In this document: in pieces, positions 734 to 22,377 of the stretch
Layout: each line of letters begins with the position of its first letter
Numbering within the stretch: the first letter of the stretch is position 1
Assembly: GCA_001603805.1 (NCBI GenBank)
Contig: LUZY01000003.1
Coordinates: 124,001-188,000, forward strand
DNA length: 64,000 nucleotides
From: Deferribacterales bacterium Deferri_01
GTDB lineage: Bacteria; Chrysiogenota; Deferribacteres; Deferribacterales; Geovibrionaceae
Direction: 5' to 3'
Made by a program: the position numbers and the translations under genes
Notes under the pieces: generated by a model
Database searches by the model: none
The model's input: only the letters and a program-made list of their open reading frames with translations
Told to the model about the DNA's origin: nothing

Positions 734-1915
734 ATGAAAAAATCATTGACCATATTAATAATTCTGGCTGTTTTATGGGGATGCGGAAGCAACAAAAAAG
801 CCGTTGAAGAAAACTTTATCCCGGTAAAAACCACAGCAGTTAATATGGTTGATGATCATCTCAGAGTCTCGGCCGGGGGCACTGTCACATCACAGGATTC
901 TCCGTCAAAACTGTCTTTCCTTGTTGCGGGCAGAGTGGTTCGCATTGTACCTGATGAGGGCGGCTTTGTGAAAAAAGGCTCTCTCATTGCAGAGCTTGAC
1001 CCCGCTGATTATATAATAGCCGTCCGCAGATCCAAAGCACAGGCTGATATGGCAAAAGCGGCATTTGAAAAAGCCGACAGACCTGTAAGAAGTGAACAGC
1101 TTGAACAGGCTCGAATAGCATACGAACGCTCAAAGGATGAACACTCCCGAATGAAAATGCTTTATGATGCAGGGAGTCTTGCTCCAAATGATTATCTTAA
1201 GTTCAAGGCGGCGTATGAATCTGCCGAACGCCAATATGAAATGGCGCAGACAGGCGGACAGAAAGAGGATAAACAACAGGCAGCCGCTGCTTACAGACAG
1301 GCGCAGGCTGCACTGGCATATGAACAAAAAAGATTAAACGATACAAAACTTTATGCCGTAAATGACGGTTATGTGTCCAAACGCTTCATAGCAGAAGGTG
1401 AAACAGTTTCATCGGGCTATCCCGTTGTGGAGACTGTCTGCCTCGACCCTGTGGACGTGAGTTCAGGCATGCCGGAGAAGGATATACGGTTCATAAAAAC
1501 CGGGCAGAAGGCTGAAATAAGCATTTCTGCACTCCCTGATAAGGTTTTTGAGGGCAGAGTCCGTGTTGTGAATGTTTCCGCTGACCCAGCCACCAGAACT
1601 TATCTTGTAAAAATAGAAGTTTCCAATCCTGACGGGCTTCTGAAAATTGGTATGGCGGCGGATGTAGCTGTCGTGGCAGATGAAAAAACAAAGATGCTCA
1701 CAGTGCCGCTTAATTCCGTTGTCAGGGATACCCAGGGCGCCCCTGCGGTTTTTGTGTTTAAGGAAAACAGAGCCTACGCACAGAAGGTGGAGACCGGTAG
1801 ATTGTACAATACTGATATAGAGATAAAAAGCGGGCTGAAGGGTGACGAGCTTATAATAACGGCAGGTCAGGAAAGGCTGAGGGATGGAGCGGCGGTTAAG
1901 CCTGCTGCGGAGTAA
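734..1915 (+). CDS. RND efflux periplasmic adaptor (membrane fusion protein), lipoprotein
   Basis: This 393-residue protein is the periplasmic adaptor of a tripartite efflux pump, linking the inner-membrane RND pump to the outer-membrane channel. It opens with a short lipoprotein signal ending in a lipobox (LWGC, Cys about residue 17). A split biotinyl-lipoyl domain follows (VAGRVVRIVPDEGGFVKKG, then AVNDGYVSKRFIAEGETV) around a long alpha-helical hairpin rich in Ala, Lys and Gln, and then the beta-barrel and membrane-proximal domains. Length fits the HlyD/AcrA family. GAGG lies eight bases before the ATG. The stop is four bases before the ATG of the RND-TolC fusion, so the two genes form one operon. 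Substrate cannot be told from sequence. Confidence 0.9.
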   Translation: MKKSLTILIILAVLWGCGSNKKAVEENFIPVKTTAVNMVDDHLRVSAGGTVTSQDSPSKLSFLVAGRVVRIVPDEGGFVKKGSLIAELDPADYIIAVRRSKAQADMAKAAFEKADRPVRSEQLEQARIAYERSKDEHSRMKMLYDAGSLAPNDYLKFKAAYESAERQYEMAQTGGQKEDKQQAAAAYRQAQAALAYEQKRLNDTKLYAVNDGYVSKRFIAEGETVSSGYPVVETVCLDPVDVSSGMPEKDIRFIKTGQKAEISISALPDKVFEGRVRVVNVSADPATRTYLVKIEVSNPDGLLKIGMAADVAVVADEKTKMLTVPLNSVVRDTQGAPAVFVFKENRAYAQKVETGRLYNTDIEIKSGLKGDELIITAGQERLRDGAAVKPAAE

Positions 1916-1919
1916 TCTC

Positions 1920-4900
1920 ATGAAATTTATCAAAAGTTCCCTCAATCACCCCATAGTTACAGTTGTTATCACCCTTGCTGTGGTGATAGTCGGCATCCAC
2001 GCTTTCCTTAAAATGCCCCGAACTGAAGACCCTTCCATAACCATACGCACAGGGCTGGTGTTTGCGGTTTACCCCGGTGCTTCCTCAGAAGAGGTTGAGC
2101 GCCAGCTCACGGTTAAACTTGAAGAACACATATTTAAGTTCCCTGAAATAAGAAAGGAAAAGACCTACTCCACAAGCCGTCCGGGTATTGCCGTGGTGAA
2201 TGTTGAGCTTGAGGATTATGTTACCGAGGCTGATGTGTTCTGGGCGAAGCTCCGCAATGAATTTGCAGAGGCTAAATCCGAGTTTCCGGAAGGGGTTTAC
2301 GCAATATCAGTCAACTCCGATTTCGGTGATACTGTAGCCATGCTCATCGCTGTCCACGGGGACAACTACGGTTATCGCGAATTAAGCGATTATGCAGATA
2401 AGATACAGGACGGTCTGCGTTCGGTACGTGAGGTCGGCAAGGTTGTTGTCTATGGCAAACAGCAGGAACAGATAAAGGTTACTACTGATTCCGAAAGGCT
2501 TGCCGCATATGCAACTGATCCCATGAAGATTGCCCGTATGTTGAAAGAGAGAAATACCGTTGGTTTTTCAGGTAATTTTGAATCGGCAGAAAGCAAAATC
2601 CCCATAAAAACAGCGGGTCTTTTTAAAGCGGAAGATGATGTGCGGAATACTCTCATTGATGTTTCCCGTACCACAGGTCATCCTGTTTATCTCAAGGATT
2701 TGGCTGATATAGAAAGAGTTTATGAAGACCCTTCATTTATGATCCGTTATGACGGCACACCTGCACTCCTTATTTCTGTTGAGATGCAGGAAGGGAAAAA
2801 CATTGTAGAACTGGGTGAATCGATTGGTCAGGTTTTTACAGGGCTGAAGGGGATTCTGCCGCCTGATATCTCACTTGACCTCATTGCTGACCAGCCCACT
2901 GTCGTAAAAGAGAGAATGAACACTCTAACCCATGAGTTTATGCTTGCCATTGCCTCGGTTATTCTTGTTACTATTATTCTCCTTCCTTTCAGAGTGGCTG
3001 TCATTGCGGCTGTTGCAATTCCGGTAACTCTTTGTGCTACATTGGGTTTGATGAACACTTTCGAGATAGCGCTCCATCAGGTTTCCATAGCATCGCTTAT
3101 TATGGTGCTGGGCATTGTGGTGGATGATGCTATAGTTATTGCTGACAACTATGTTGAACTTCTGGACAGAAAAGTGCCGAAGGAAGATGTGGCGTGGCGT
3201 TCGGCTGGCGATGTATTTGTTCCTGTACTCACTGCGACTCTTACTATCATATTCTCATTTTTGCCGCTTCTCATTCTTTCCGGCTCAGTGGGCGAGTTTA
3301 TTTCCGCACTTCCGAAAACCGTTGCAATTGCTCTTTCGGTTTCGTTTATTGTGGCGGTTATGCTCACTCCGATTCTTTGCAGATTTTTTATCAAAAAGGG
3401 TCTGCATTCTGATACACCGGATAAAAAGCAGAGACGTTCTGTTCTGGACAGGGTGCAGGGCGCATACGCTGTTACGATCAATATATTTATGAAACGCAAA
3501 TATTTAGCTGCTGTTGTGGGAATAGCGGGCATTGTCCTTGGCGGTTTGTATTTTAAATATATTCCACAGCAGTTTTTCCCATCAGCCGAGCGCAACCAAT
3601 TTGTAATTGATGTCTGGATGCCTCAGGGAAGCAGAATCGAGGCAACTGATGCTGTTATGAACCGCATCGAAGGCAGACTTTCTGAACATTCTGATGTCAG
3701 TCATTTTGCCGCATTCGTGGGCAGAAGCGCACCGAGATTCTACTATAATGTCAACCCTCAGCAGCCAGACACCGCTTATGGTCAGTTTATTGTCAACACA
3801 GTGTCTGAAAAGGCGACTGTGGGACTGGTTTATGAACTCCGAAAGTCCCTCGCCGAAACTGCACCGGAAGCACTTGTAATAGTCAAGGAGCTTCAGCAGG
3901 GTAATCTTCTTGAGGCTCCGGTTGAGGTGCGGATAAGCGGATATGATATTCATAAACTTAAACAAATCGGGGCGGAGATAGGGGGGGTAATATCCTCTGT
4001 GCCGTATTCTGATTTTGTGCATACGGACTATTTTAATGATTCAATGATGATAGATGTGAATGTGGACACTGACGCAGCCGCAAGGCTCGGTATTCCGGCT
4101 TCTGCAATAGCAGGGTATCTCTACGGAGGATTTGACGGTATAACAGTAACCAACTACAGAGAAGGGGAAAGAGTCATACCCGTGGTTCTTCGTCTTAATA
4201 AGGAAAACCGCAGCAAAATAAGTGATATAGGCGATTATTATATAACCTCACCCACAACAGGTGCAAAAATTCCGGTACGCTCCGTTGCGGAAGTTAAACC
4301 GGAGTTTCAGACAAGCCGTATAGTCCGCAGAAACGGTGTGCCCACCCTCACTGTCAGAGCTTTTGTGAAGGAAGGATACTACGCCTCTGCGCTTCTTGAC
4401 AGGGTTCGTCCGGAGATTGAAGCAATCAGTCTTCCTGCCGGATACAGCATAAGCTACGGCGGTGAGCTTATGAACAGAGATGAAACATTCCCGCAGATGA
4501 TGGTTGCTCTCGGAATCAGTCTGATAGCTATATTTTTTGTTCTTCTTGTGCAGTTTAAGAATATCCGTGAACCGCTTATAATTATGGCGTCCATACCTCT
4601 TGCACTGCCCGGTGCTATGTTCGGGCTATTCATTACCGGCAACCCGTTCGGCTTTACTGCATTCATGGGGCTTATAAGCCTTTGCGGAATAGTGGTTAGA
4701 AACGCTATTATTTTGGTGGATTACATAAAAGAGAAAACGGCGGAGGGGCATAGCCTGGAGCGTGCAGCAACAGAAGCGGGGGAGCGTAGACTGCGTCCAA
4801 TATTTCTTACTACCATGGCGGCAGCGGTGGGTGTTACCCCTATGATCCTCTCCGGTTCAAGCCTTTGGAGTCCGCTTGCCAGTGTTATAGCTGTGGGGCT

Positions 4901-6308
4901 TATTTTTTCCATGTTTTTTACGCTTCTTGTGGTGCCTGTGCTTTATGTTGTTGTCATGTCAGAAAAAAGAGGTGCAAAAACAGCAGCGGCTGTCATGGCA
5001 TTTATGCTTTTTACAGGCACAGCACATGCTGATACTTTCACACTTAAGCAGGCGGAGGAATATGCCCTTAAAAACAGCCGTAATCTGAAGATTACAGAGG
5101 CGAGGATTCAGGAACAGGCATCTGTGAAAAGAACCGCCAAAGCAAACTATTTCCCTATGCTTACTGTGGATTCAATGTACTCCGAAACGACCAATAACGG
5201 GCTTGTAACAATCGATAAAGGCGCACTGGGAACTGTTCCGGGGCTTGGAGGTTTTCCAACGGAGGATCTCGAAATAGATCAGGGAAGCGATTCTCTTTTT
5301 ATTGTGAACACCACAATAAAGCAGCCGCTTACACAGCTTTTTAAGATAAATGAGGGTGTAGGTGTTGCGGATGCTGATTTGAAAACTGCAAAGGCAGAAC
5401 ATAAAAAAGCGGTGAACGAAACAGTATTCGCAGTGCGCAGGCTTTTTTACGGTATCCTTCTTGCGGATATACAGACAGAAGTTTACGGAACCTACGTTAA
5501 CGCCTTTGAGGAAACAGTTAAGGAAGCGGAGGATGCCTTCTCCGCCGGCAATGTTCTTGAATCTGCCGTTATGGAGGCAGAAACAGGGCTTTTAAACAGC
5601 AGACAGAACCTTAAATCTGCTGAAACAAGGCTTTCAGACCTGAAAGCGCAGTTCAGGGATTTACTTAATTTACCCTCTGATACAGAAATTACCCTTGACG
5701 GTGAATCAATTACAGATGAGCCGGAGAGTATCAGCATTACAAAAGCAGAGGCGGAACTCACCTCTCCTGATGTAAAAGCGGCTGAATACATTCTGGAAAA
5801 AGCAATGAGAGCCAGAGGGGCGGCGAGAGATGAATACATTCCTGATCTGGGGCTGTTCGCAAGGCATACATACCAGGACGGAGTCCCTTTTGTTGACAGC
5901 AGCATAACCACTTTCGGCGTGCAGGCGGAGTGGGATGTGTTTGACTGGGGCAAGCGCAGAGGTGTTCTGGGGCAGAGGAACGCGCAGGTTATTCAGGCAT
6001 CTGAAAATCTGCGGAATGCCAAAGGCAGGCTTGAAGTTGAACTTAACAGGCTGAACGGCAGGCTTGAATATGCTGAAAGTGTACTTAAAACTGCTGAAAA
6101 GGCTGCGGAACTGGCAGAAGAAAACAGCCGTCAGATGAACGACAGGCTCAAAGCCGGACTGGTCAGCGAAGCTAAGGTTAAGCGCACTGCAGCGGAGGCG
6201 GAAAAATCACAGTATGATCTGAAAGCTGCAAGGCTGAATATTCTTCTTGCCACAGCAGAAATAAGAAAAGTATCAGGAATTCTTGCTGCTGCGGAAAAAG
6301 CTGAATGA
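1920..6308 (+). CDS. RND efflux pump fused to a TolC-like outer-membrane factor
   Basis: One continuous frame of 1462 codons encodes two pump components. Residues 1 to about 1012 are a full HAE-type RND permease: first membrane helix at the N-terminus, porter domains, a central helix bundle with the proton-relay motif GIVVDDAIVIADN, and a second bundle ending near 1010. Residues 1013-1037 look like a signal peptide (MSEKRGAK, hydrophobic core, then TGTAHA). From Asp1038 to the end there is a complete outer-membrane efflux protein of about 425 residues with the usual duplicated helical hairpins and the segment FGVQAEWDVFDWGKRR. I start at 1920, just after the adaptor stop, not at the upstream in-frame codon 1884. 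Signal peptidase could cut after Ala1037 and release the channel; otherwise the polypeptide spans both membranes. Confidence 0.9.
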   Translation: MKFIKSSLNHPIVTVVITLAVVIVGIHAFLKMPRTEDPSITIRTGLVFAVYPGASSEEVERQLTVKLEEHIFKFPEIRKEKTYSTSRPGIAVVNVELEDYVTEADVFWAKLRNEFAEAKSEFPEGVYAISVNSDFGDTVAMLIAVHGDNYGYRELSDYADKIQDGLRSVREVGKVVVYGKQQEQIKVTTDSERLAAYATDPMKIARMLKERNTVGFSGNFESAESKIPIKTAGLFKAEDDVRNTLIDVSRTTGHPVYLKDLADIERVYEDPSFMIRYDGTPALLISVEMQEGKNIVELGESIGQVFTGLKGILPPDISLDLIADQPTVVKERMNTLTHEFMLAIASVILVTIILLPFRVAVIAAVAIPVTLCATLGLMNTFEIALHQVSIASLIMVLGIVVDDAIVIADNYVELLDRKVPKEDVAWRSAGDVFVPVLTATLTIIFSFLPLLILSGSVGEFISALPKTVAIALSVSFIVAVMLTPILCRFFIKKGLHSDTPDKKQRRSVLDRVQGAYAVTINIFMKRKYLAAVVGIAGIVLGGLYFKYIPQQFFPSAERNQFVIDVWMPQGSRIEATDAVMNRIEGRLSEHSDVSHFAAFVGRSAPRFYYNVNPQQPDTAYGQFIVNTVSEKATVGLVYELRKSLAETAPEALVIVKELQQGNLLEAPVEVRISGYDIHKLKQIGAEIGGVISSVPYSDFVHTDYFNDSMMIDVNVDTDAAARLGIPASAIAGYLYGGFDGITVTNYREGERVIPVVLRLNKENRSKISDIGDYYITSPTTGAKIPVRSVAEVKPEFQTSRIVRRNGVPTLTVRAFVKEGYYASALLDRVRPEIEAISLPAGYSISYGGELMNRDETFPQMMVALGISLIAIFFVLLVQFKNIREPLIIMASIPLALPGAMFGLFITGNPFGFTAFMGLISLCGIVVRNAIILVDYIKEKTAEGHSLERAATEAGERRLRPIFLTTMAAAVGVTPMILSGSSLWSPLASVIAVGLIFSMFFTLLVVPVLYVVVMSEKRGAKTAAAVMAFMLFTGTAHADTFTLKQAEEYALKNSRNLKITEARIQEQASVKRTAKANYFPMLTVDSMYSETTNNGLVTIDKGALGTVPGLGGFPTEDLEIDQGSDSLFIVNTTIKQPLTQLFKINEGVGVADADLKTAKAEHKKAVNETVFAVRRLFYGILLADIQTEVYGTYVNAFEETVKEAEDAFSAGNVLESAVMEAETGLLNSRQNLKSAETRLSDLKAQFRDLLNLPSDTEITLDGESITDEPESISITKAEAELTSPDVKAAEYILEKAMRARGAARDEYIPDLGLFARHTYQDGVPFVDSSITTFGVQAEWDVFDWGKRRGVLGQRNAQVIQASENLRNAKGRLEVELNRLNGRLEYAESVLKTAEKAAELAEENSRQMNDRLKAGLVSEAKVKRTAAEAEKSQYDLKAARLNILLATAEIRKVSGILAAAEKAE

Positions 6309-6385: not shown

Positions 6386-6414
6386 TTGAAAATTTAATTA
6401 TATCGCTATATAGT
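6386..6414 (+). promoter_or_regulatory. Sigma-70-type promoter of the SBP/GTPase/ABC/methyltransferase operon
   Basis: TTGAAA at 6386-6391 and TATAGT at 6409-6414 are separated by exactly 17 bases; each hexamer matches five of six consensus positions. The -10 box lies inside the ModE-like operator (6402-6429), an arrangement expected for repression. The first gene starts about 90 bases downstream. Confidence 0.65.
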
Positions 6415-6429
6415 TTAATACATAGCGAT
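6402..6429. promoter_or_regulatory. ModE-type (molybdate-responsive) operator
   Basis: ATCGCTATATA (6402-6412), six bases, then TACATAGCGAT (6419-6429). As I recall it, the E. coli ModE consensus is ATCGnTATATA-n6-TATATAnCGAT; this site differs at one base of the right arm. The symmetric core ATATCGCTAT / ATAGCGATAT (6400-6409 and 6422-6431) is perfect, with centres two helical turns apart. It covers the -10 element and first transcribed bases, so a metal-loaded ModE would block transcription. No modE or modABC gene is in the window; the regulator is inferred from the site alone. Confidence 0.6.
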
Positions 6430-6467
6430 ATCGTTCTTATTATGTGACGGATCAGGCTATATTACCC

Positions 6468-6488
6468 CCGTGCGGCTTTTATGCACGG
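6468..6488 (+). other. Leader hairpin before the ribosome site
   Basis: CCGTGC (6468-6473) and GCACGG (6483-6488) form a six-pair stem with a nine-base loop. It ends four bases before the AAGGAGG ribosome site at 6493-6499. It could modulate translation of the first gene of the operon; no known riboswitch class is recognised. Confidence 0.35.
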
Positions 6489-6504
6489 TTTCAAGGAGGC
6501 TATC

Positions 6505-7746
6505 TTGAAAAATATCAGGCCTGAAATGAGTATTTCAGACATTTTAACCGATTTTTCCGAAACAAAAGAACTGTTCATGATGAACGGTCTCGGGTGTTTT
6601 GCGGATAACGGTGCGTTTCTCAAAACCCTTACTCTGTCTTCATTCACGAAGATGAGAGAGCTTAACCCCGAAATTTTCTATTCACTTCTGGAAAAACGCA
6701 TAGAGGCAAGCGAAGTTCCTATGCTCTACACGGAAGATGCACCCCCGGTTAAGCCGGATTTCCTCGGCTATATGGTGTGTCCGATCAAGCACCTTTTTAA
6801 AGAGTCATACGAAGAGGCGATGATAAAACACCTTGAAAAAACAGGTGAAAAATTTGTCAGCTTCGTCCCTATGGGCTGCGGAGGGGCTGATCCTTATGAG
6901 GATATATGGCAGTCCTACAACATAGATGAACTGCCGGATATTGTCAGTTCCATCGGCTTCGGTTCTTTTTACAGAACCCAGTTTACATCACGATTTCTTG
7001 ACAGCGGGCATTATGAAGCCTGCCAGATGAAGCCCATGCCCGAACCATTCGCCTCCGCAGGCATAGAAGACCCTCTGGGGGTTTACACCGTGTATGCTGT
7101 TTATACATACATAATGCTTGTGGATTATAAACGACTTAAAGATCTTCCCGTTCCCCGCAGTTGGAGCGATTTGATGAAACCGGAATATAAAAACAACATA
7201 ATAGTCGGCGGAAGTGATGACTACATCAGCGAGGTTCTTCTTGTAAATATCTGGAAAGATTACGGTCAGGAAGGTCTTGATAAACTTCTGCCGAACATAA
7301 AAGATGGCTGGCACGCATCACAGATGGCAAAAGCTGCCGGAAGTTCGATGTCAACCGGAGCTGCAATCTATGTTCTTCCTTGGTTTTTTGCCAAATCATG
7401 CCCGAATACCGAACATACGGAAATTATCTGGCCGGAGGATGGAGCAATGGCAAGCCCCATGTATATGCTTGTTAAAAAGAAGGAAAAAGAACGCCTGAAA
7501 CCAATTATAGACTACATGACAGGAACAGAGCTTGCTGACATTATGGCGTCCTCTTTTTTCCCCTCTGTGCATCCAGAAGCTGACAATAAGCTTCCCGAAG
7601 GGGCAAAAATCAAATGGCTCGGCTGGGATTTTATCAGAGGCAGAGACATGAAAGCCTTTTCCGATGAATTAAATGATAACTTCATGGCAAAACTCAGAGA
7701 GTACAGAAAAGAGCAGGGCAAAAAACTGCACGTTATAATCCGCTGA
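6505..7746 (+). CDS. Cytosolic periplasmic-binding-protein homologue with N-terminal DUF1858-like domain
   Basis: The protein of 413 residues has two parts. Residues 1 to about 70 resemble the DUF1858/hybrid-type helical domain (MSISDIL near the start, then NGLGCF). The remainder looks like an iron/anion ABC substrate-binding protein (LPVPRSWSDLMKPEYKNNI, GAAIYVLPWFFAKSCP, ending near a WLGWDF motif). There is no signal peptide, so it should stay in the cytoplasm, which is unusual for this fold. Cysteines occur in VCPIKH and MGCGG. I choose the TTG at 6505 because a perfect AAGGAGG lies five bases upstream; the in-frame ATG at 6481 has no ribosome site and falls inside the leader hairpin. It is the first gene of a four-gene operon behind a ModE-type operator. 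Ligand unknown; a molybdate or tungstate species is inferred. Confidence 0.75.
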   Translation: MKNIRPEMSISDILTDFSETKELFMMNGLGCFADNGAFLKTLTLSSFTKMRELNPEIFYSLLEKRIEASEVPMLYTEDAPPVKPDFLGYMVCPIKHLFKESYEEAMIKHLEKTGEKFVSFVPMGCGGADPYEDIWQSYNIDELPDIVSSIGFGSFYRTQFTSRFLDSGHYEACQMKPMPEPFASAGIEDPLGVYTVYAVYTYIMLVDYKRLKDLPVPRSWSDLMKPEYKNNIIVGGSDDYISEVLLVNIWKDYGQEGLDKLLPNIKDGWHASQMAKAAGSSMSTGAAIYVLPWFFAKSCPNTEHTEIIWPEDGAMASPMYMLVKKKEKERLKPIIDYMTGTELADIMASSFFPSVHPEADNKLPEGAKIKWLGWDFIRGRDMKAFSDELNDNFMAKLREYRKEQGKKLHVIIR

Positions 7747-7766: not shown

Positions 7767-8471
7767 ATGAAGCTTATTACTGTCGCAGGTCCCCCGTCAG
7801 CGGGGAAGACCTCGGTTATTATAAAAACCGCCGAATATCTCTCCAAATACAAAGGCAAGATCGGAATTGTCAAGTTTGACTGTCTTTCCGCACTTGATCA
7901 CAGGCTCTACACTGAAGCTGGTTTGACAGTTGTTACCGGACTCTCCGGCAACCTTTGCCCCGACCATTACTTCGTAAGCAACATTGACGACTGTGTTCAG
8001 TGGGGCAGGGAAAAGGGATTTGACGTTCTGATAAGCGAAAGCGCAGGGCTATGCAACCGCTGCGCCCCTCATATCAAAGGCGTTACTGCCGTGTGCGTTG
8101 TGGACTGCCTTTCCGGCGTGGACACACCGCAGAAAATAGGTCCCATGCTCCGCTATGCGGATATAGCCGTTATAACCAAGGGTGACATAGTTTCCCAGGC
8201 AGAGAGAGAGGTTTTTGCTTTCCGTGTCCGTCAGGCTAACCCCAAGGCTGCTGTCATGTTCGTAAACGGCATTACAGGTCAGGGAGCTTATGATTTGAGT
8301 TTTTCATTTGATGAAGCCTCCGAAGTTTCATCTCTTGAGGGGGCAAGACTGCGTTTTTCAATTCCCGCTGCTATATGCCCTTATTGTGTGGGTGAAACCG
8401 ATATCGGCGTGGACCACCAGAAAGGAAATGTTAAGAAAATGACATTCAAAGAGGCGGTTCCAAATGGGTAA
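7767..8471 (+). CDS. G3E-like P-loop GTPase with C-terminal CxxC
   Basis: The 234-residue protein has a Walker A motif at its N-terminus (GPPSAGKTS, about residues 8-16). It continues with a SIMIBI/G3E-type core resembling HypB and UreG, which deliver metals to enzymes: ISESAGLCNRCAPH, a switch-like VVDCLSGVD, and the guanine-recognition variant TKGD in place of NKxD. Two cysteine pairs (CNRC near residue 95 and CPYC near 210) plus GVDHQKGN could bind metal. It begins 20 bases after the binding-protein homologue and overlaps the ABC ATPase gene by eight bases, suggesting tight coupling. The exact substrate is unknown; a role in metal handling is inferred from family and operator. Confidence 0.75.
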   Translation: MKLITVAGPPSAGKTSVIIKTAEYLSKYKGKIGIVKFDCLSALDHRLYTEAGLTVVTGLSGNLCPDHYFVSNIDDCVQWGREKGFDVLISESAGLCNRCAPHIKGVTAVCVVDCLSGVDTPQKIGPMLRYADIAVITKGDIVSQAEREVFAFRVRQANPKAAVMFVNGITGQGAYDLSFSFDEASEVSSLEGARLRFSIPAAICPYCVGETDIGVDHQKGNVKKMTFKEAVPNG

Positions 8472-9498
8472 ACATCTTTTAAAAGTGCCTTTCGGCAGGC
8501 TTCTTCAGGAGCATCCATACGCAGGAGACTATTTCCGCTCAATCGGCTTATCGTGGAAGGACAGCCTTCAGACTCCGGAACAGCTTATTGAATCCGTGGA
8601 AGAAGAAACTATGGAGGATGCGGGACTTTCCCATGAGCAGATGCGCACGCACTTTCTGGAATTTATGGCGCAGGCAGCGGAGCTGATGAAAAACTCAAAA
8701 CGCAGACTTTCATCACTGACCATAATCGGCGGAACAGATAAAAACGGGCGTGAGGAAAATGTTGAGATAGAACTTTGTCCAGGGGATATTATGTGTATTG
8801 TCGGCCCTACCGGATCCGGCAAAAGCCGTCTTCTGGCTGATATTGAATGCTTTGCACAGAAGGACACACCGACAGGCAGAACAATCCTCATCGACGGCAA
8901 TAAACCCACGCAGAACGAACGCTTCCGCTTTGAGAACAAGCTTGTTGCACAGCTTTCCCAGAACATGAACTTTGTGGTGGATCTGAATGTGGAGAGTTTT
9001 GTCGCCATGCATGCTTCAAGCCGGATGGTTGTGGATATAGATTCTACTGTTCAGTCTGTCATAGAGTGCGCCAACGAGCTTGCCGGAGAAAAATTTGAGC
9101 GCAAAACTGCTCTTACCCAGCTTTCCGGCGGTCAGTCACGGGCGCTTATGATAGCAGATACGGCTCTTTTAAGCTCATCACCCATTGTCCTGATAGATGA
9201 GATAGAAAACGCCGGAGTAGACAGAAAGAAAGCCTTAGAACTTCTTGTTAGAAAAGAGAAAATTGTCCTGATGTCCACCCATGATCCGATTCTGGCTCTG
9301 ATGGGTAACAGACGTATAGCGATCAGCAACGGAGGCATTGCCGCTTTGATCGATACAGAAGGGAAGGAAAAAGAAAATCTCGCTGTTCTGGAAGAGTTTG
9401 ACGCTAAAATACTTGAAATAAGAAATATGCTGAGATCCGGCAAAAAAATAGATTTTGAACTGGGTGAGTTTCTCGGACTCGCAGAGAAAACCGTTTGA
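8464..9498 (+). CDS. Soluble ABC-type ATPase with extra N-terminal helical domain
   Basis: The first roughly 80 of 344 residues form a helical domain (KVPFGRLLQEHPYAGDYF) reminiscent of the DUF1858-like segment in the operon's first protein. An ABC nucleotide-binding domain follows: Walker A GPTGSGKS, signature LSGGQSRALMIAD, Walker B IVLIDEIENAG and switch His in MSTHDP. No membrane segment is seen, and the operon encodes no permease. It is therefore either an ATPase borrowing a permease from elsewhere or, more likely to me, a soluble ABC machine in cofactor or metal handling. The ATG overlaps the GTPase gene by eight bases. Family assignment is firm, function is not. Confidence 0.8.
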   Translation: MGKHLLKVPFGRLLQEHPYAGDYFRSIGLSWKDSLQTPEQLIESVEEETMEDAGLSHEQMRTHFLEFMAQAAELMKNSKRRLSSLTIIGGTDKNGREENVEIELCPGDIMCIVGPTGSGKSRLLADIECFAQKDTPTGRTILIDGNKPTQNERFRFENKLVAQLSQNMNFVVDLNVESFVAMHASSRMVVDIDSTVQSVIECANELAGEKFERKTALTQLSGGQSRALMIADTALLSSSPIVLIDEIENAGVDRKKALELLVRKEKIVLMSTHDPILALMGNRRIAISNGGIAALIDTEGKEKENLAVLEEFDAKILEIRNMLRSGKKIDFELGEFLGLAEKTV

Positions 9499-16685: not shown

Positions 16686-18110
16686 ATGATTATGAAATAT
16701 ATGATTGCATGCGTGCTTTTTTTCTCTTTAGCACTCATGGGATGTGGGGTCAGAGAGCAGTCGGTCAAAATTAAGGAACTCAAAGCTGAAGTACCGGAAT
16801 CATTTGTTAATGTTTCTGCGGGCTATGTTCCTGATAATTCATCGGAATGGTGGAGTATTTTTGACGACATTGCTCTGGATCGGCTTATTCGTGAGATGTT
16901 TGCAGAAAACTATGAGCTTGAAGATACTTACGTCGCTTTGGAAATAAAACGTTCAGGAGTGAAGTCCGCCCGTGCGGACAGAATGCCTGTTGTAACAGCC
17001 GGCGGCGGGATTAACGAGACTTCAAGGGAGTCCGGCGGCGAAAGGAAATGGCAGGATGAATATGAGCTTTCTGTCAGAGCCTCATGGGAGGCAGATATAT
17101 GGGGCAAGGATGCAAGCCTTGTTTCAGCAGCAGAGTATGATTCTGAATATGCAAGAATGACCCTTCGGGGCAGATACATTTCTCTTTCTGCCGAGCTGGC
17201 GGACAGATACTTCCTCTACAGATACGAAACTGAACATCTTCTGAAATTAAAAAAGCTTGAAAAGTTATATGAAAAGCTTGTCAAAGCAGACAGAAATTCT
17301 TTCAGATCAGGGCTTGGCACTCTTGAAGATATATACGAATCTGAAAAAAAGCTTGAAACTGTCAGAATAAACAGAGCGTCCGCTGAATCCACTGCCATGA
17401 GCCTGCGTGAAGAGATAGGGCTTCTTCTTGCCAGAAGGGGCGCAGAGCTGCCTGAACTGCCTCAGGGATGGCAGGTGCGTATTCCTGATGTGCCCTATGC
17501 TGTCCCTGCCGATGTAATAACCTCAAGACCTGACATCAAAGCCGCTGAATACGCAATATACAGAACAGACAGACAGCTTGCCTCTGCCATAGCTAACAGG
17601 TATCCGTCGCTTTCCATTTCTGCAGCGGGTGTTTACGGTTCTGACAGTGTTTCCGCACTGATACGCCCTGAATCCTTTGCGTTTTCGCTTATTGCTGATG
17701 CTCTTTTCACTGTTTTTGACGGCGGGAAAAAGAAAACAGCCGTAACTGTAAAAGAGCTTGAGCTTGACTCGTACATATTAAAATACAAACAGGCAGTGCT
17801 TACCGCTCTGCATGACATTGAGAAAGGGCTCCTTGAAAATTCCTACAGAGAAAAAGCCATTACCGAACTTAGGCGCACCGCAGAGAAAAACAATTCTCTT
17901 TATGAACTTGGCAGCCTCAAATTCAGAGGCGGTCTTATCCCCCTCAGAAGTGTAATATCCGCTGAAATAAGCATGCTTGAGCAGGAAATAGCGCTTCTGG
18001 GCGGTGAACGGGAACTGGTGAGCGCAAGAATAAGTCTTATCCGTGCCTTAGGGAATGGATGGGAGAATAAATATATAGCTGAAATGGAAAAATCAGGAGA
18101 CGGGAAATGA
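16686..18110 (+). CDS. NodT/TolC-family outer-membrane efflux lipoprotein
   Basis: The 474-residue outer-membrane factor has a lipoprotein signal ending LMGC (Cys near residue 20). It has the duplicated helical barrel organisation of RND efflux channels, with SWEADIWGKDASLVSAAEYD, TSRPDIKAAEYAIYRTDRQLASA and VFDGGKKKTAV. Putting the channel gene first in the operon is less common than last. The start at 16686 is uncertain: ATG at 16692 is in frame with a similar G-rich region upstream. Its stop overlaps the adaptor start by four bases. Confidence 0.88.
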   Translation: MIMKYMIACVLFFSLALMGCGVREQSVKIKELKAEVPESFVNVSAGYVPDNSSEWWSIFDDIALDRLIREMFAENYELEDTYVALEIKRSGVKSARADRMPVVTAGGGINETSRESGGERKWQDEYELSVRASWEADIWGKDASLVSAAEYDSEYARMTLRGRYISLSAELADRYFLYRYETEHLLKLKKLEKLYEKLVKADRNSFRSGLGTLEDIYESEKKLETVRINRASAESTAMSLREEIGLLLARRGAELPELPQGWQVRIPDVPYAVPADVITSRPDIKAAEYAIYRTDRQLASAIANRYPSLSISAAGVYGSDSVSALIRPESFAFSLIADALFTVFDGGKKKTAVTVKELELDSYILKYKQAVLTALHDIEKGLLENSYREKAITELRRTAEKNNSLYELGSLKFRGGLIPLRSVISAEISMLEQEIALLGGERELVSARISLIRALGNGWENKYIAEMEKSGDGK

Positions 18111-19291
18111 GCAAGAACATAATTAAAATTATTCTGCCGGTGGCAATTATCGGAGTTTCGCTGCTGGTCTGGAAATACTATATGTCCAACATTCCCGTTC
18201 CTGAAAAAAATGACCCTGCTCGGATTCCCCCTGTTGTTATTACAGAAAAAAGCACAAAGACTTTTATTCCCCTTGAACGTGAAGGATACGGCAGAGTGCA
18301 GGCGGAAAAAACTATTGATGTTAAAACAGAAACAGGCGGAACTGTAATATATAAGAATCCTGCTTTTGATGAAGGCGGCAGAATAAATAAAGGCGATGTG
18401 CTTTTCAGGCTGGAGTCTGTTTCCTACGAAGCTGCTCTGAGTGAGGCTGAAACAGCCCTTGCCACCGCAAGACTGAATCTGGCGGAAATTGAACATTCTG
18501 CAGATATAACCTCCAAAGAATGGGAACTGTGGAATGAGGGCAGAGAAAAACCTGAAATTCCGGGAAGGCTTGCCGATTACCAGCTTCAGAAGGCGGAAGC
18601 GCAGGCAAAGCTTGTTCAGGCGGAAGACAGGCTGCGTCTTGCAAAGAGCAATCTCGGCAAAATAGTCTACTACGCTCCATTTAATGCTGTAGTTGTTTCA
18701 TCTTCAATTGAAAACGGAAGTGTTGTTAAATCAGGCGATGTGCTTGGTTCACTGGCGGGGAATGAACTGTATGAAGCTGTTGTTCCTTTTCCAGCTTCGG
18801 TTTCAGTGGATTTCCGTTTTGCTCTCACAGAAAAAGAGGCATCACCCGTTGCCGTAATATTAAAAGACGGACATAACTCATGGGAATACAGAGGTTATCT
18901 GGCAAAGCTTCTGCCTGCTGCTGACGAAACAACAGGCATGGTAAGAGCAGTGGTGAGGATTCCTTTAAAAGAAAGTAATATCGAAAACAAGCCTGCGCCC
19001 GCCATAGGAATGACGATTAAAGCTGTTCTCCGCACCAGAGAGCCTGAACAACGGGTGATCATACCCGAAGGGGCGCTCCGTGAGGGTTCGCAGGTCTGGG
19101 CTGTGGAAAACGGCAGACTCCGTGTTATTCATGTGGATGTTCATTCTTATAAGGAGGACAGGGTTATCCTTTCCTCTGGTCTTGAGGGAGGAGAGGAGCT
19201 GATAGTCTCCAGACTCCGCGGCGCAGTGGACGGTATGGATGTTACCGTGCGTGATGCGGACAATTCCACCCTTTCAGGGAGTCTTAAATGA
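18107..19291 (+). CDS. RND efflux periplasmic adaptor protein
   Basis: The protein has 394 residues, an N-terminal membrane anchor (residues 5-21) and no lipobox. The lipoyl half-motifs are present (TGGTVIYKNPAFDEGGRINKG and NLGKIVYYAPFNAVVVSSSI), with a moderately long helical hairpin between them. The C-terminal part (IPEGALREGSQVWAVENGRL, LSSGLEGGEELIVSRLRGAV) is typical of AcrA-like adaptors. Both ends overlap the neighbouring genes by four bases, so the three pump parts are translated together. Unlike the fused pump at 1920-6308, this system keeps three separate polypeptides. Confidence 0.9.
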   Translation: MSKNIIKIILPVAIIGVSLLVWKYYMSNIPVPEKNDPARIPPVVITEKSTKTFIPLEREGYGRVQAEKTIDVKTETGGTVIYKNPAFDEGGRINKGDVLFRLESVSYEAALSEAETALATARLNLAEIEHSADITSKEWELWNEGREKPEIPGRLADYQLQKAEAQAKLVQAEDRLRLAKSNLGKIVYYAPFNAVVVSSSIENGSVVKSGDVLGSLAGNELYEAVVPFPASVSVDFRFALTEKEASPVAVILKDGHNSWEYRGYLAKLLPAADETTGMVRAVVRIPLKESNIENKPAPAIGMTIKAVLRTREPEQRVIIPEGALREGSQVWAVENGRLRVIHVDVHSYKEDRVILSSGLEGGEELIVSRLRGAVDGMDVTVRDADNSTLSGSLK

Positions 19292-22200
19292 TCCGCAGGG
19301 GCGGTGCTGTGGGCTGGATGGCTAAAAATAAGGTAGCCTCCAACCTTCTTATGCTTTTCTTCCTTGTGGGCGGCATATTCATGATGCTGAACACCAAGCA
19401 GGAAGTTTTTCCTGACTCTGAAAAAGATATTATTAACATAACATTTGAATACACAGGCGCTTCACCCGCAGAAATTGAAGAGGGGATGATTCTCCCCACG
19501 GAAGACGCTGTAAGCAGCCTGCATTTTGTAAATAAGCTCACATCTGTTGCCCGTGAGGGTTCTGGTTCAGTGAGCATTGAGCTGATAAAAGGTGTGGACA
19601 GACAGCAGGCGCTTCAGGATGTTAAATCTGAAGTTGATAAAATATCCACCTATCCCGATGAGGCTGAAACACCGGATGTTGAGCTTGAAATAAGGCGGAG
19701 AGAAGTTCTGACCGTAAGTGTTTACGGTAATGTGAACGAAGAGGCGCTGCGCTATTATGCGGACAGGATAAAAAACGGACTTCTTGCAACAGAGGGTATT
19801 ACCCAGCTTGAATACGTCGCTGTGAAAGACAGGGAAATAGCTGTCTGGATACCGGAAGAGACCTTACGTAAGTACAGCATAACCCTCAGAGATATATCAA
19901 GCGCTCTCAGGGAAAACTCCATAGACTATCCGTCCGGAACCCTTGAAACCGAATCCGGTGATATTAAACTCCGAATGTATGATAAGCGCCGCACAGGGCA
20001 GGAGTTCAGGGATATTCCCGTAGTCTCATCCGCAGGCGGCGGCACTGTTCTTCTGGGCGATATAGCAGAAATTTATGATGGTTTTGAAGAAAAAGACATA
20101 CTGGAACGTTTCAACGGCGCTCCGTCTATTTCAATAGATGTTTACAGGGTGGGCAAACAGACACCCGCCAGCGTATCAGAGCGGGTTCATAATACAATAA
20201 GCAAAATCACTCCCACATTTCCGGATTCGGTTAAAGTTACAATCTGGGACGACAGGTCAGAGCAGCTTGAAAACCGAATAAATCTGCTTATGAAAAATGC
20301 TGCTTTTGGTCTTTCGCTTGTTGTTATAATCCTTGCAGTGTTTCTAGAAACAAGGGTTGCACTCTGGGTAGCTCTGGGGATCCCCATATCAGTATTCGGA
20401 TCTTTCTATTTCCTTAATCTGGCAGGCGCTTCCATCAACATGATAACAACTTTTGCATTTATAATGACTCTTGGTATTGCGGTGGATGATGCCATTGTTG
20501 TAGGAGAGAACATACACTCGCACTATAAATCAGGCAAAAGCAGATACCGTGCCGCAGTTGACGGCACAAGGGAAATGTTAAGCGCTGTTACCTTCTCTGT
20601 TCTTACCACAGTTGCCACATTTGCACCGCTTCTGTTTGTTGAAGGGAGCATGGGACTTCTTATGAACACCCTTCCGGTGGTTGTTATCTCTGTTCTTATG
20701 GTTTCTCTTGTGGAATCATTTTTTATTCTCCCCGCACATATGAACAGCGGGAGGGATACGGAGAAAAAAGCTTTAATCTCTTTCGGGATAAGGGAAAAAA
20801 TAAGAAATGCCCTGGACAGGTTTGTTAACGGTCCGTTTGAAAGATTTTTGCGTCTTTCCATGGAATATAAATACGCAACAGTATCAGTCTTTTTTGCGGT
20901 TACGATTGTATTTGCCGCTATTGTCTGGTCGGGAAATCTGAAGTTCAGGTTTCTTGCCCCGCTTGAAGGTGACAGAGTCAGGGCGACAGCGGTTATGCCC
21001 ACCGGAACAGCCTCCGCTGTATCTGAAAGAGTTATAAAAAGGCTGGAGGAAGCGGCGTTTCAAGTTGATGCGGATATGATGAAGCAAAGAGGCAGTGATA
21101 CGGGCTTTATCGAATACATAAACAGCGGTGTCCGGAGAGACGGCAGCGTTGTTGTCAATGTTATGCTTTATGAATACGAAATACGAAAATTCCGCACCGG
21201 ACTCTTCGAGGAAAAATGGCGTGAGAAGGTGAAAAATATAAACTCTGCGGAATCACTGAGCTTTGATTCCCAGCTTAGGAACTTCGGGGCAAATATCTCC
21301 GTTCGCCTTGATCATGACAATGAGGAAACACTGCGGAGCGCAAGCAATATTATTAAACAAAAACTGGCGGAATACGGCGGTGTTTATGATATTGAGGACT
21401 CCTTTGCATCCAAACAGCAGGAAATTCACTATAAACTCAACAGCTACGGCAGATCACTCGGACTCACTAATGATATCATCGCCTCGCAGGTCTCTCCGGC
21501 ATTTCTCGGCATAAAATCCCTGACCTATCAGAGAGGGCAGGATGAGGTGACAGTGAGAGTTAAATATCCCGATTACGGGCGGAAATTTCAGGGTGATATA
21601 TTTGCACTGAATATAAAGACTCCTGCCGGTTCTGAAGTGCCTTTAAGTGCGGTAGCGGAGGTTTACTTCACAGAAGATCTCACCGAAATAAACCGAACAA
21701 ACAGACGCAGGGTCGTAAACGTTATTGCAACAGCAGGTGTGACATCAAACCCGCAGGAAATAATGAAGGATCTCGCTGCGAACACTCTGCCGGAGGTTCA
21801 AGGTCTTTTCCCCGGTCTGGAATGGAAATTTGAGGGGCAGGAAGAAAGCAGGCGGGAATCTATGGACAGCCTTAAATACAACATGACATTTGCCGTGCTG
21901 ATAGTTTATGCATTGATTGCTGTCCCTTTGGCAAGCTATGTGCAGCCGCTTATAATCATGTTTTCAATTCCTCTGGGACTCGTGGGTGCAGCAGCAGGGC
22001 ATATGCTTCTGGGCTTGAGTTTAAGTCTTATGAGTATCTTTGGAATGGTTGCTGTGAGCGGTGTTGTTGTTAACAACTCTCTTGTACTTGTGGACTTCAT
22101 AAACAGGTTCGGACGTGACAAAGGCTACGTGAATGACGAGGTTATAATCAACGGCGCAAAACGCAGGTTCAGACCGATTATCATGACATCTCTTACCACT

Positions 22201-22377
22201 TTTTTCGGTCTTGCGCCTATGATAATGGAAACATCAATACATGTGCAGTTTCTTATACCTATGGCTGTGAGCATAGCCTTCGGAGTTCTGTTCACAACCA
22301 TTGTTGCACTTTTATTTGTTCCCAGCGCATATTCAATCATGGAGGATATTAAGCGTATATTCGAGAAAGCCAAATAA
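19288..22377 (+). CDS. RND efflux permease, HAE type
   Basis: The protein has 1029 residues and twelve predicted membrane helices, with the usual duplication and large periplasmic loops. The proton-relay segment in helix 4 reads IMTLGIAVDDAIVVGENI, with two adjacent Asp residues characteristic of hydrophobe/amphiphile pumps, and the matching helix-10 segment is near GVVVNNSLVLVDFI. It therefore probably exports organic toxicants, not metal ions, although the substrate is not certain. Control by the divergent CpxAR-like pair is inferred from the box at 16600. Confidence 0.92.
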   Translation: MIRRGGAVGWMAKNKVASNLLMLFFLVGGIFMMLNTKQEVFPDSEKDIINITFEYTGASPAEIEEGMILPTEDAVSSLHFVNKLTSVAREGSGSVSIELIKGVDRQQALQDVKSEVDKISTYPDEAETPDVELEIRRREVLTVSVYGNVNEEALRYYADRIKNGLLATEGITQLEYVAVKDREIAVWIPEETLRKYSITLRDISSALRENSIDYPSGTLETESGDIKLRMYDKRRTGQEFRDIPVVSSAGGGTVLLGDIAEIYDGFEEKDILERFNGAPSISIDVYRVGKQTPASVSERVHNTISKITPTFPDSVKVTIWDDRSEQLENRINLLMKNAAFGLSLVVIILAVFLETRVALWVALGIPISVFGSFYFLNLAGASINMITTFAFIMTLGIAVDDAIVVGENIHSHYKSGKSRYRAAVDGTREMLSAVTFSVLTTVATFAPLLFVEGSMGLLMNTLPVVVISVLMVSLVESFFILPAHMNSGRDTEKKALISFGIREKIRNALDRFVNGPFERFLRLSMEYKYATVSVFFAVTIVFAAIVWSGNLKFRFLAPLEGDRVRATAVMPTGTASAVSERVIKRLEEAAFQVDADMMKQRGSDTGFIEYINSGVRRDGSVVVNVMLYEYEIRKFRTGLFEEKWREKVKNINSAESLSFDSQLRNFGANISVRLDHDNEETLRSASNIIKQKLAEYGGVYDIEDSFASKQQEIHYKLNSYGRSLGLTNDIIASQVSPAFLGIKSLTYQRGQDEVTVRVKYPDYGRKFQGDIFALNIKTPAGSEVPLSAVAEVYFTEDLTEINRTNRRRVVNVIATAGVTSNPQEIMKDLAANTLPEVQGLFPGLEWKFEGQEESRRESMDSLKYNMTFAVLIVYALIAVPLASYVQPLIIMFSIPLGLVGAAAGHMLLGLSLSLMSIFGMVAVSGVVVNNSLVLVDFINRFGRDKGYVNDEVIINGAKRRFRPIIMTSLTTFFGLAPMIMETSIHVQFLIPMAVSIAFGVLFTTIVALLFVPSAYSIMEDIKRIFEKAK

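Follow-up and report, generated by a model that had tools for sequence, protein, structure and literature searches.

A fused RND permease and TolC-type channel gene that probably encodes a polyprotein divided by signal peptidase

A single gene of Deferribacterales bacterium Deferri_01 encodes, in one uninterrupted chain, an RND permease, a signal-like segment and a TolC-type outer-membrane channel. We consider it probable (about 0.78) that this gene specifies a bacterial polyprotein, which signal peptidase would split into permease and channel, resulting in 1:1 synthesis of the two. The gene spans positions 1920-6308 (+ strand) of the window, that is, the entire 64,000-nucleotide stretch of contig LUZY01000003.1 analyzed here, and consists of 1462 codons and a stop; the reading frame contains no stop from 1884 to 6308, and translation likely starts at ATG 1920. 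The first-pass annotation had described such a frame, with both the permease and the channel complete, and the Pfam, AlphaFold2 and Foldseek results bear this out. The encoded pump is of a known type that, with the predicted cleavage, would be made as a processed precursor.

The fused gene is the second of a two-gene operon. The upstream gene (734-1915, +), whose stop codon ends just 5' of ATG 1920, encodes a periplasmic adaptor (membrane-fusion protein) with a lipoprotein-type signal (LWGC), which matches HlyD_D23 (94 bits) and, over the cut-off, the RND_mfp model TIGR01730 (211 bits). Thus, adaptor, permease and channel are encoded together, as in a tripartite RND pump operon, and the order of adaptor followed by fused gene is kept in the fused loci examined. 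Other, separate OEP genes are present elsewhere in the genome, and an ordinary operon at 16686-22377 of the window encodes channel, adaptor and permease as separate genes. An Rfam search of the window gave no match. A promoter-like site at 4555-4582 precedes the channel part, and such sites are not clearly commoner than in shuffled sequences (17 vs 11.2, sd 3.1). A long palindrome, ATATCGCTATGTATTAAACTATATAGCGATAT (strand - as printed), occupies 6400-6431, after the fused gene and before the one that follows it, and is possibly an operator or a terminator. The product of that following gene (6481-7746) is a solute-binding protein by its match to SBP_bac_6 (262.6 bits). Its N-terminus resembles DUF1858, and a signal peptide is not visible; an apparently cytoplasmic solute-binding protein seems odd. 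Genes for a CobW-type GTPase (7767-8471) and an ABC ATPase (8464-9498) come next, and the gene for the solute-binding protein also adjoins the fused pump in one congener.

The permease part comprises residues 1-1012 (1920-4955, +), of which residues 3-1012 match ACR_tran (PF00873, 624.6 bits) over profile positions 1-1020/1021, with both porter halves. The best NCBIfam model is the multidrug RND model NF033617, at 529.7 bits, which is under its own cut-off, and the CusA/CzcA model TIGR00914 scores 353.7 bits, below its cut-off of 701.45, which rules out the heavy-metal (CzcA) type. The HAE-like class proposed in the first-pass annotation holds, and the permease is classified, on profile and sequence comparison, as an HAE-type multidrug RND. 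The nearest solved structures by sequence are 6vej (506 bits), which we take to be TriC, and MexK (468 bits), both aligning over residues 12-1010, and the proton-relay residues D402-D403 in TM4 and R927-N928 in TM10 align with both. The twelfth membrane helix covers residues 983-1013 (4866-4958, +) in the AlphaFold2 model, and its C-terminal end is expected to be cytoplasmic, in accord with RND topology.

The linker between the RND and TolC parts reads MSEKRGAKTAAAVMAFMLFTGTAHA/DT, with the slash marking the predicted cut after TAHA; the TGTAHA stretch reported earlier lies exactly at residues 1032-1037, from T1032 to A1037. In the alignment and in the list of linkers, a predicted internal signal peptide corresponds to alignment columns 1013-1037 (4956-5030, +), with a basic n-region (4956-4979), an h-region (4980-5015) and a c-region that extends to 5030. 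Averaged over the columns of an alignment of 26 homologues, the entropy is 0.40 bits for TM12, 0.66 bits for most of the RND part and 1.19 bits for the TolC part; in the linker, it reaches 1.89 bits in the n-region and 1.97 bits in the h-region. Nevertheless, the composition of these regions is constrained: Lys and Arg make up 38% of the n-region and are absent from the h-region, which is 84% hydrophobic. The best-conserved point of the linker is the predicted signal peptidase I site, Ala1037/Asp1038 (5028-5033, +), where position -1 is Ala in all 26 homologues, position -3 is Ala in 22 and Val in 4, and position +1 is Glu in 23, Asp in 2 and Gly in one, in agreement with the earlier suggestion that the cleavage site is retained. 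All 41 distinct linkers of the main clade have a net n-region charge of +1 to +6 and, with the exception of L076, whose segment was clipped before the core, a hydrophobic core of 2.2-3.4 on the Kyte-Doolittle scale. The features of signal peptidase I substrates are present, namely, a basic n-region, a hydrophobic core of 7-15 residues and small residues at -3 and -1; the signal is called here from conservation and simple hydropathy. In Persicobacter (Bacteroidota), the internal sites read SWG/Q and SSG/Q, in line with the published rule for Bacteroidetes, where cutting by signal peptidase I leaves Gln at the new N-terminus (PMC5837995). The pattern across the linker is that predicted under selection for cleavage, and would not be expected if the segment were just a spacer or a stably inserted helix.

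The mature channel would comprise residues 1038-1462 (5031-6305, +). From residue 1042 onward, there are two OEP matches (PF02321, 151.8 bits), the AlphaFold2 model of this part is a complete TolC fold (pLDDT 81.7), and Foldseek matches it to TolC, OprM and CusC with E-values of about 1e-14 to 1e-16; two OEP repeats are thus combined with the barrel plus helix-tunnel fold of TolC-type outer-membrane factors. The first channel helix starts at residue 1042, about 5 residues past the predicted cleavage site. In a model of residues 330-1462, TM12 (983-1013) is followed by a distinct short helix at 1020-1032 (~13 residues), at low confidence across the join (pLDDT about 40, pTM 0.43).

Taken as a polyprotein, the gene product could be processed as follows. 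The ribosome would make the RND permease, with the twelfth helix ending in the cytoplasm, and then continue through a complete signal peptide. This segment would enter the translocon with its N-terminal end inside, sending the TolC domain to the periplasm, where signal peptidase I would cut after Ala1037 and release the channel, now beginning with DTFTLKQ, for insertion in the outer membrane. The used signal would remain on the permease as a short hydrophobic segment, the thirteenth, unless a peptidase removed it. The assembled pump has a 3:6:3 composition, with three permeases, six adaptors and three channels. One translation would therefore yield permease and channel in the proportion found in this assembly, 1:1, with the adaptor, of which twice as many copies are needed, encoded separately. 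We infer that the benefit of the fusion lies in uniting the parts present in three copies each and leaving out the six-fold adaptor. For a signal located internally, behind a twelve-helix protein, cleavage is unusual, albeit plausible; nevertheless, one synthesis followed by release of the channel by signal peptidase, as the first-pass annotation proposed, is the best-supported mechanism.

Alternatively, the channel could be made also, or mainly, from a translation start near the join, so that the signal would be an ordinary N-terminus there. The window gene has an in-frame ATG at 4956, at the very beginning of the signal segment, and the unfused sisters discussed below have a start codon at that place. 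However, the Shine-Dalgarno pairing at this ATG is weak, -1.5 kcal/mol vs -6.1 kcal/mol at ATG 1920, the respective Met is replaced by Lys in most homologues, and L042 and L068 contain no ATG, GTG or TTG from 12 codons before the linker to the h-region. In some other homologues, fair Shine-Dalgarno matches accompany GTG codons, and internal starts might be used in some individual species of this kind. Across the homologue linkers, there is no conserved internal start codon, and we therefore reject internal initiation as the way in which the channel is generally made and consider it unlikely even as a contribution in the window gene.

Another reading is that the join stays uncut: the hydrophobic segment would then be membrane helix 13, and the channel would stay tethered in a permanently linked pump. 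Although the frame is single and continuous and the segment is predicted to be helical, that helix is only about 13 residues long and resembles a signal rather than a membrane-spanning segment, and conservation within the linker peaks at the -1 residue. Furthermore, lipoboxes are kept in separate RND-channel fusions (see below), which is sensible only if these are processed. In a canonical pump, the N-terminus of the channel is located far above the inner membrane, a position for which a tether of about 10 residues would be too short; hence, for a pump built in the usual way, cleavage would be all but indispensable. We therefore regard an uncut join as quite improbable and favor the processed polyprotein.

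That a sequencing error or a recent stop-loss merged two genes is ruled out for the window, with near certainty, by conservation of the join, because the same uninterrupted frame is found in independently assembled genomes of several phyla. Within Deferribacterota (51 genomes searched), it is present in the window genome and in five others, namely, two congeners with 84% identity and three Seleniivibrio-type genomes with 55% identity. With the signal-plus-channel part as query, a search of 84,980 species yielded 35 loci, of which 26 are single frames of 1409-1521 amino acids, from Geobacterales, Desulfarculales, Nitrospirota, Acidobacteriota and Seleniivibrio; the fused homologues in Geobacterales, Nitrospirota and Acidobacteriota are 46-60% identical to the window protein. 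The gene is carried by 29 of the 141 Geobacterales genomes, and all full-length copies found there are fused (56-60% identity), contrary to the possibility raised initially that relatives always have separate genes with a stop between them. Fused copies are found also in 5 of the 199 sampled Acidobacteriota genomes and, at 38-42% identity, on plasmids of Gemmatirosa and Persicobacter, so that the design is present in at least six phyla. The first-pass annotation mentioned fusions of this kind in some CzcA-like pumps of Bacteroidetes, which was not borne out: the few Bacteroidota pumps examined had separate TolC genes, and the fused pump of Persicobacter is HAE-like. Horizontal transfer is suggested by the patchy distribution of fused pumps among phyla. 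In full-length identity, the pumps of the window genus are slightly nearer to the Geobacterales copies (56-60%) than to the Seleniivibrio-type copies of the same family (55%); nonetheless, the RND tree groups both Deferribacterota sets together.

An RND tree was built from 74 sequences; in it, one clade (SH-aLRT 99) unites 24 fused sequences that represent five phyla. Overall, the tree requires five changes of state, with the starred branches forcing at least four, which excludes a single origin of all fusions. Persicobacter falls with unfused sisters, and holding it together with the main clade, as one origin of these two alone, is disfavored (AU p 0.025); yet its TolC domain is nearer to that of the window (about 137 bits) than the TolC domains of the unfused sisters are (29-50 bits). 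From this phylogeny, fusion of RND and channel seems to have arisen about four times.

The unfused sisters, from two Acidobacteriota genomes (RND identity 40-41%) and a Parabacteroides plasmid (about 35%), have the gene order adaptor-RND-TolC and, in contrast to the single chain of the window, encode two chains with two starts. In the Acidobacteriota, the RND stop and the TolC start overlap as ATGA, and in Parabacteroides, the two genes are 42 bases apart. The TolC proteins of the Acidobacteriota sisters have N-terminal signals of the normal type, MNKTPLICAAAWLLAAGALLPA/EK and MKKAAWIIIVGLCAQAVYA/QR. Given this overlap and these signals, the fused gene looks like such an overlapping RND/TolC pair that was brought into one frame, with the signal of the channel kept.

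Separate RND-channel fusions retain signal peptidase I or signal peptidase II sites, with a lipobox in two of them. In Nitrospira, nine genomes (the query and eight others, 84-94% identity) carry a fusion of another RND lineage with a NodT-like channel, and this fusion keeps the lipobox, ...IPIVVLTIVMLGGC/TPTRVSD. Unfused relatives in the same genus have permeases that are 83-86% identical; the three that were read show the ATGA overlap, with channel signals such as MKAWYSMMVLSLALMGLGGC/TPTRVSD. The fused and unfused versions within one genus (L147-L159) constitute a natural before-and-after set, which is suitable for dating the fusion and testing its effect. The fusion in a single Acidobacteriota genome (L121) keeps the signal ...ALFSLTLLLPTAASA/QEP. 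Finally, in one genome of a distant member of Deferribacterota (L127, 1751-6250), an AcrB-type RND is in frame with a NodT-like channel through ...FLIFLITGC/SFTP. The nearest listed relative is unfused, with a TAG between the two genes, so that L127 is possibly either a recent fusion or an assembly error. Taken together, we lean towards the view that processed polyproteins evolved repeatedly (about four times), fusing the 1:1 parts and leaving the twofold adaptor apart, with a signal peptidase I or II site retained each time as an obligatory internal site of processing.

If cleavage is confirmed, bacteria would here make an envelope-spanning machine by way of a polyprotein, in which signal peptidase separates two subunits bound for different membranes, and, if this is the case, control of the ratio of pump parts becomes directly testable. 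In RefSeq, the fused gene of Persicobacter is annotated only as 'efflux RND transporter permease subunit'; where these genes carry this label, an outer-membrane channel is missed in whole lineages. The open-access literature searched describes neither an RND-TolC fusion nor how one is processed, and the reviews searched for 'fused' mention no such fusion; domain databases likely list this architecture.

TriC of TriABC-OpmH (6vej) and MexK of MexJK, HAE-type permeases of Pseudomonas, have the same Asp-Asp pair in TM4 and Arg-Asn pair in TM10; however, both end after TM12, whereas the permease of the window continues, in one chain, into a channel with its own signal. TolC, OprM and CusC share the channel fold, with four barrel strands per protomer and long hairpin helices, but are normally encoded by a separate gene with an N-terminal signal, whereas the signal is internal in the window gene. 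The nearest known mechanism is probably that of the Bradyrhizobium FbcH cytochrome b/c1 precursor, in which a polytopic membrane protein and an exported protein are made as one chain, and the signal of the latter is kept and cleaved; the proteins are unrelated, and the analogy extends to the mechanism only, but the fused pump would appear to work alike.
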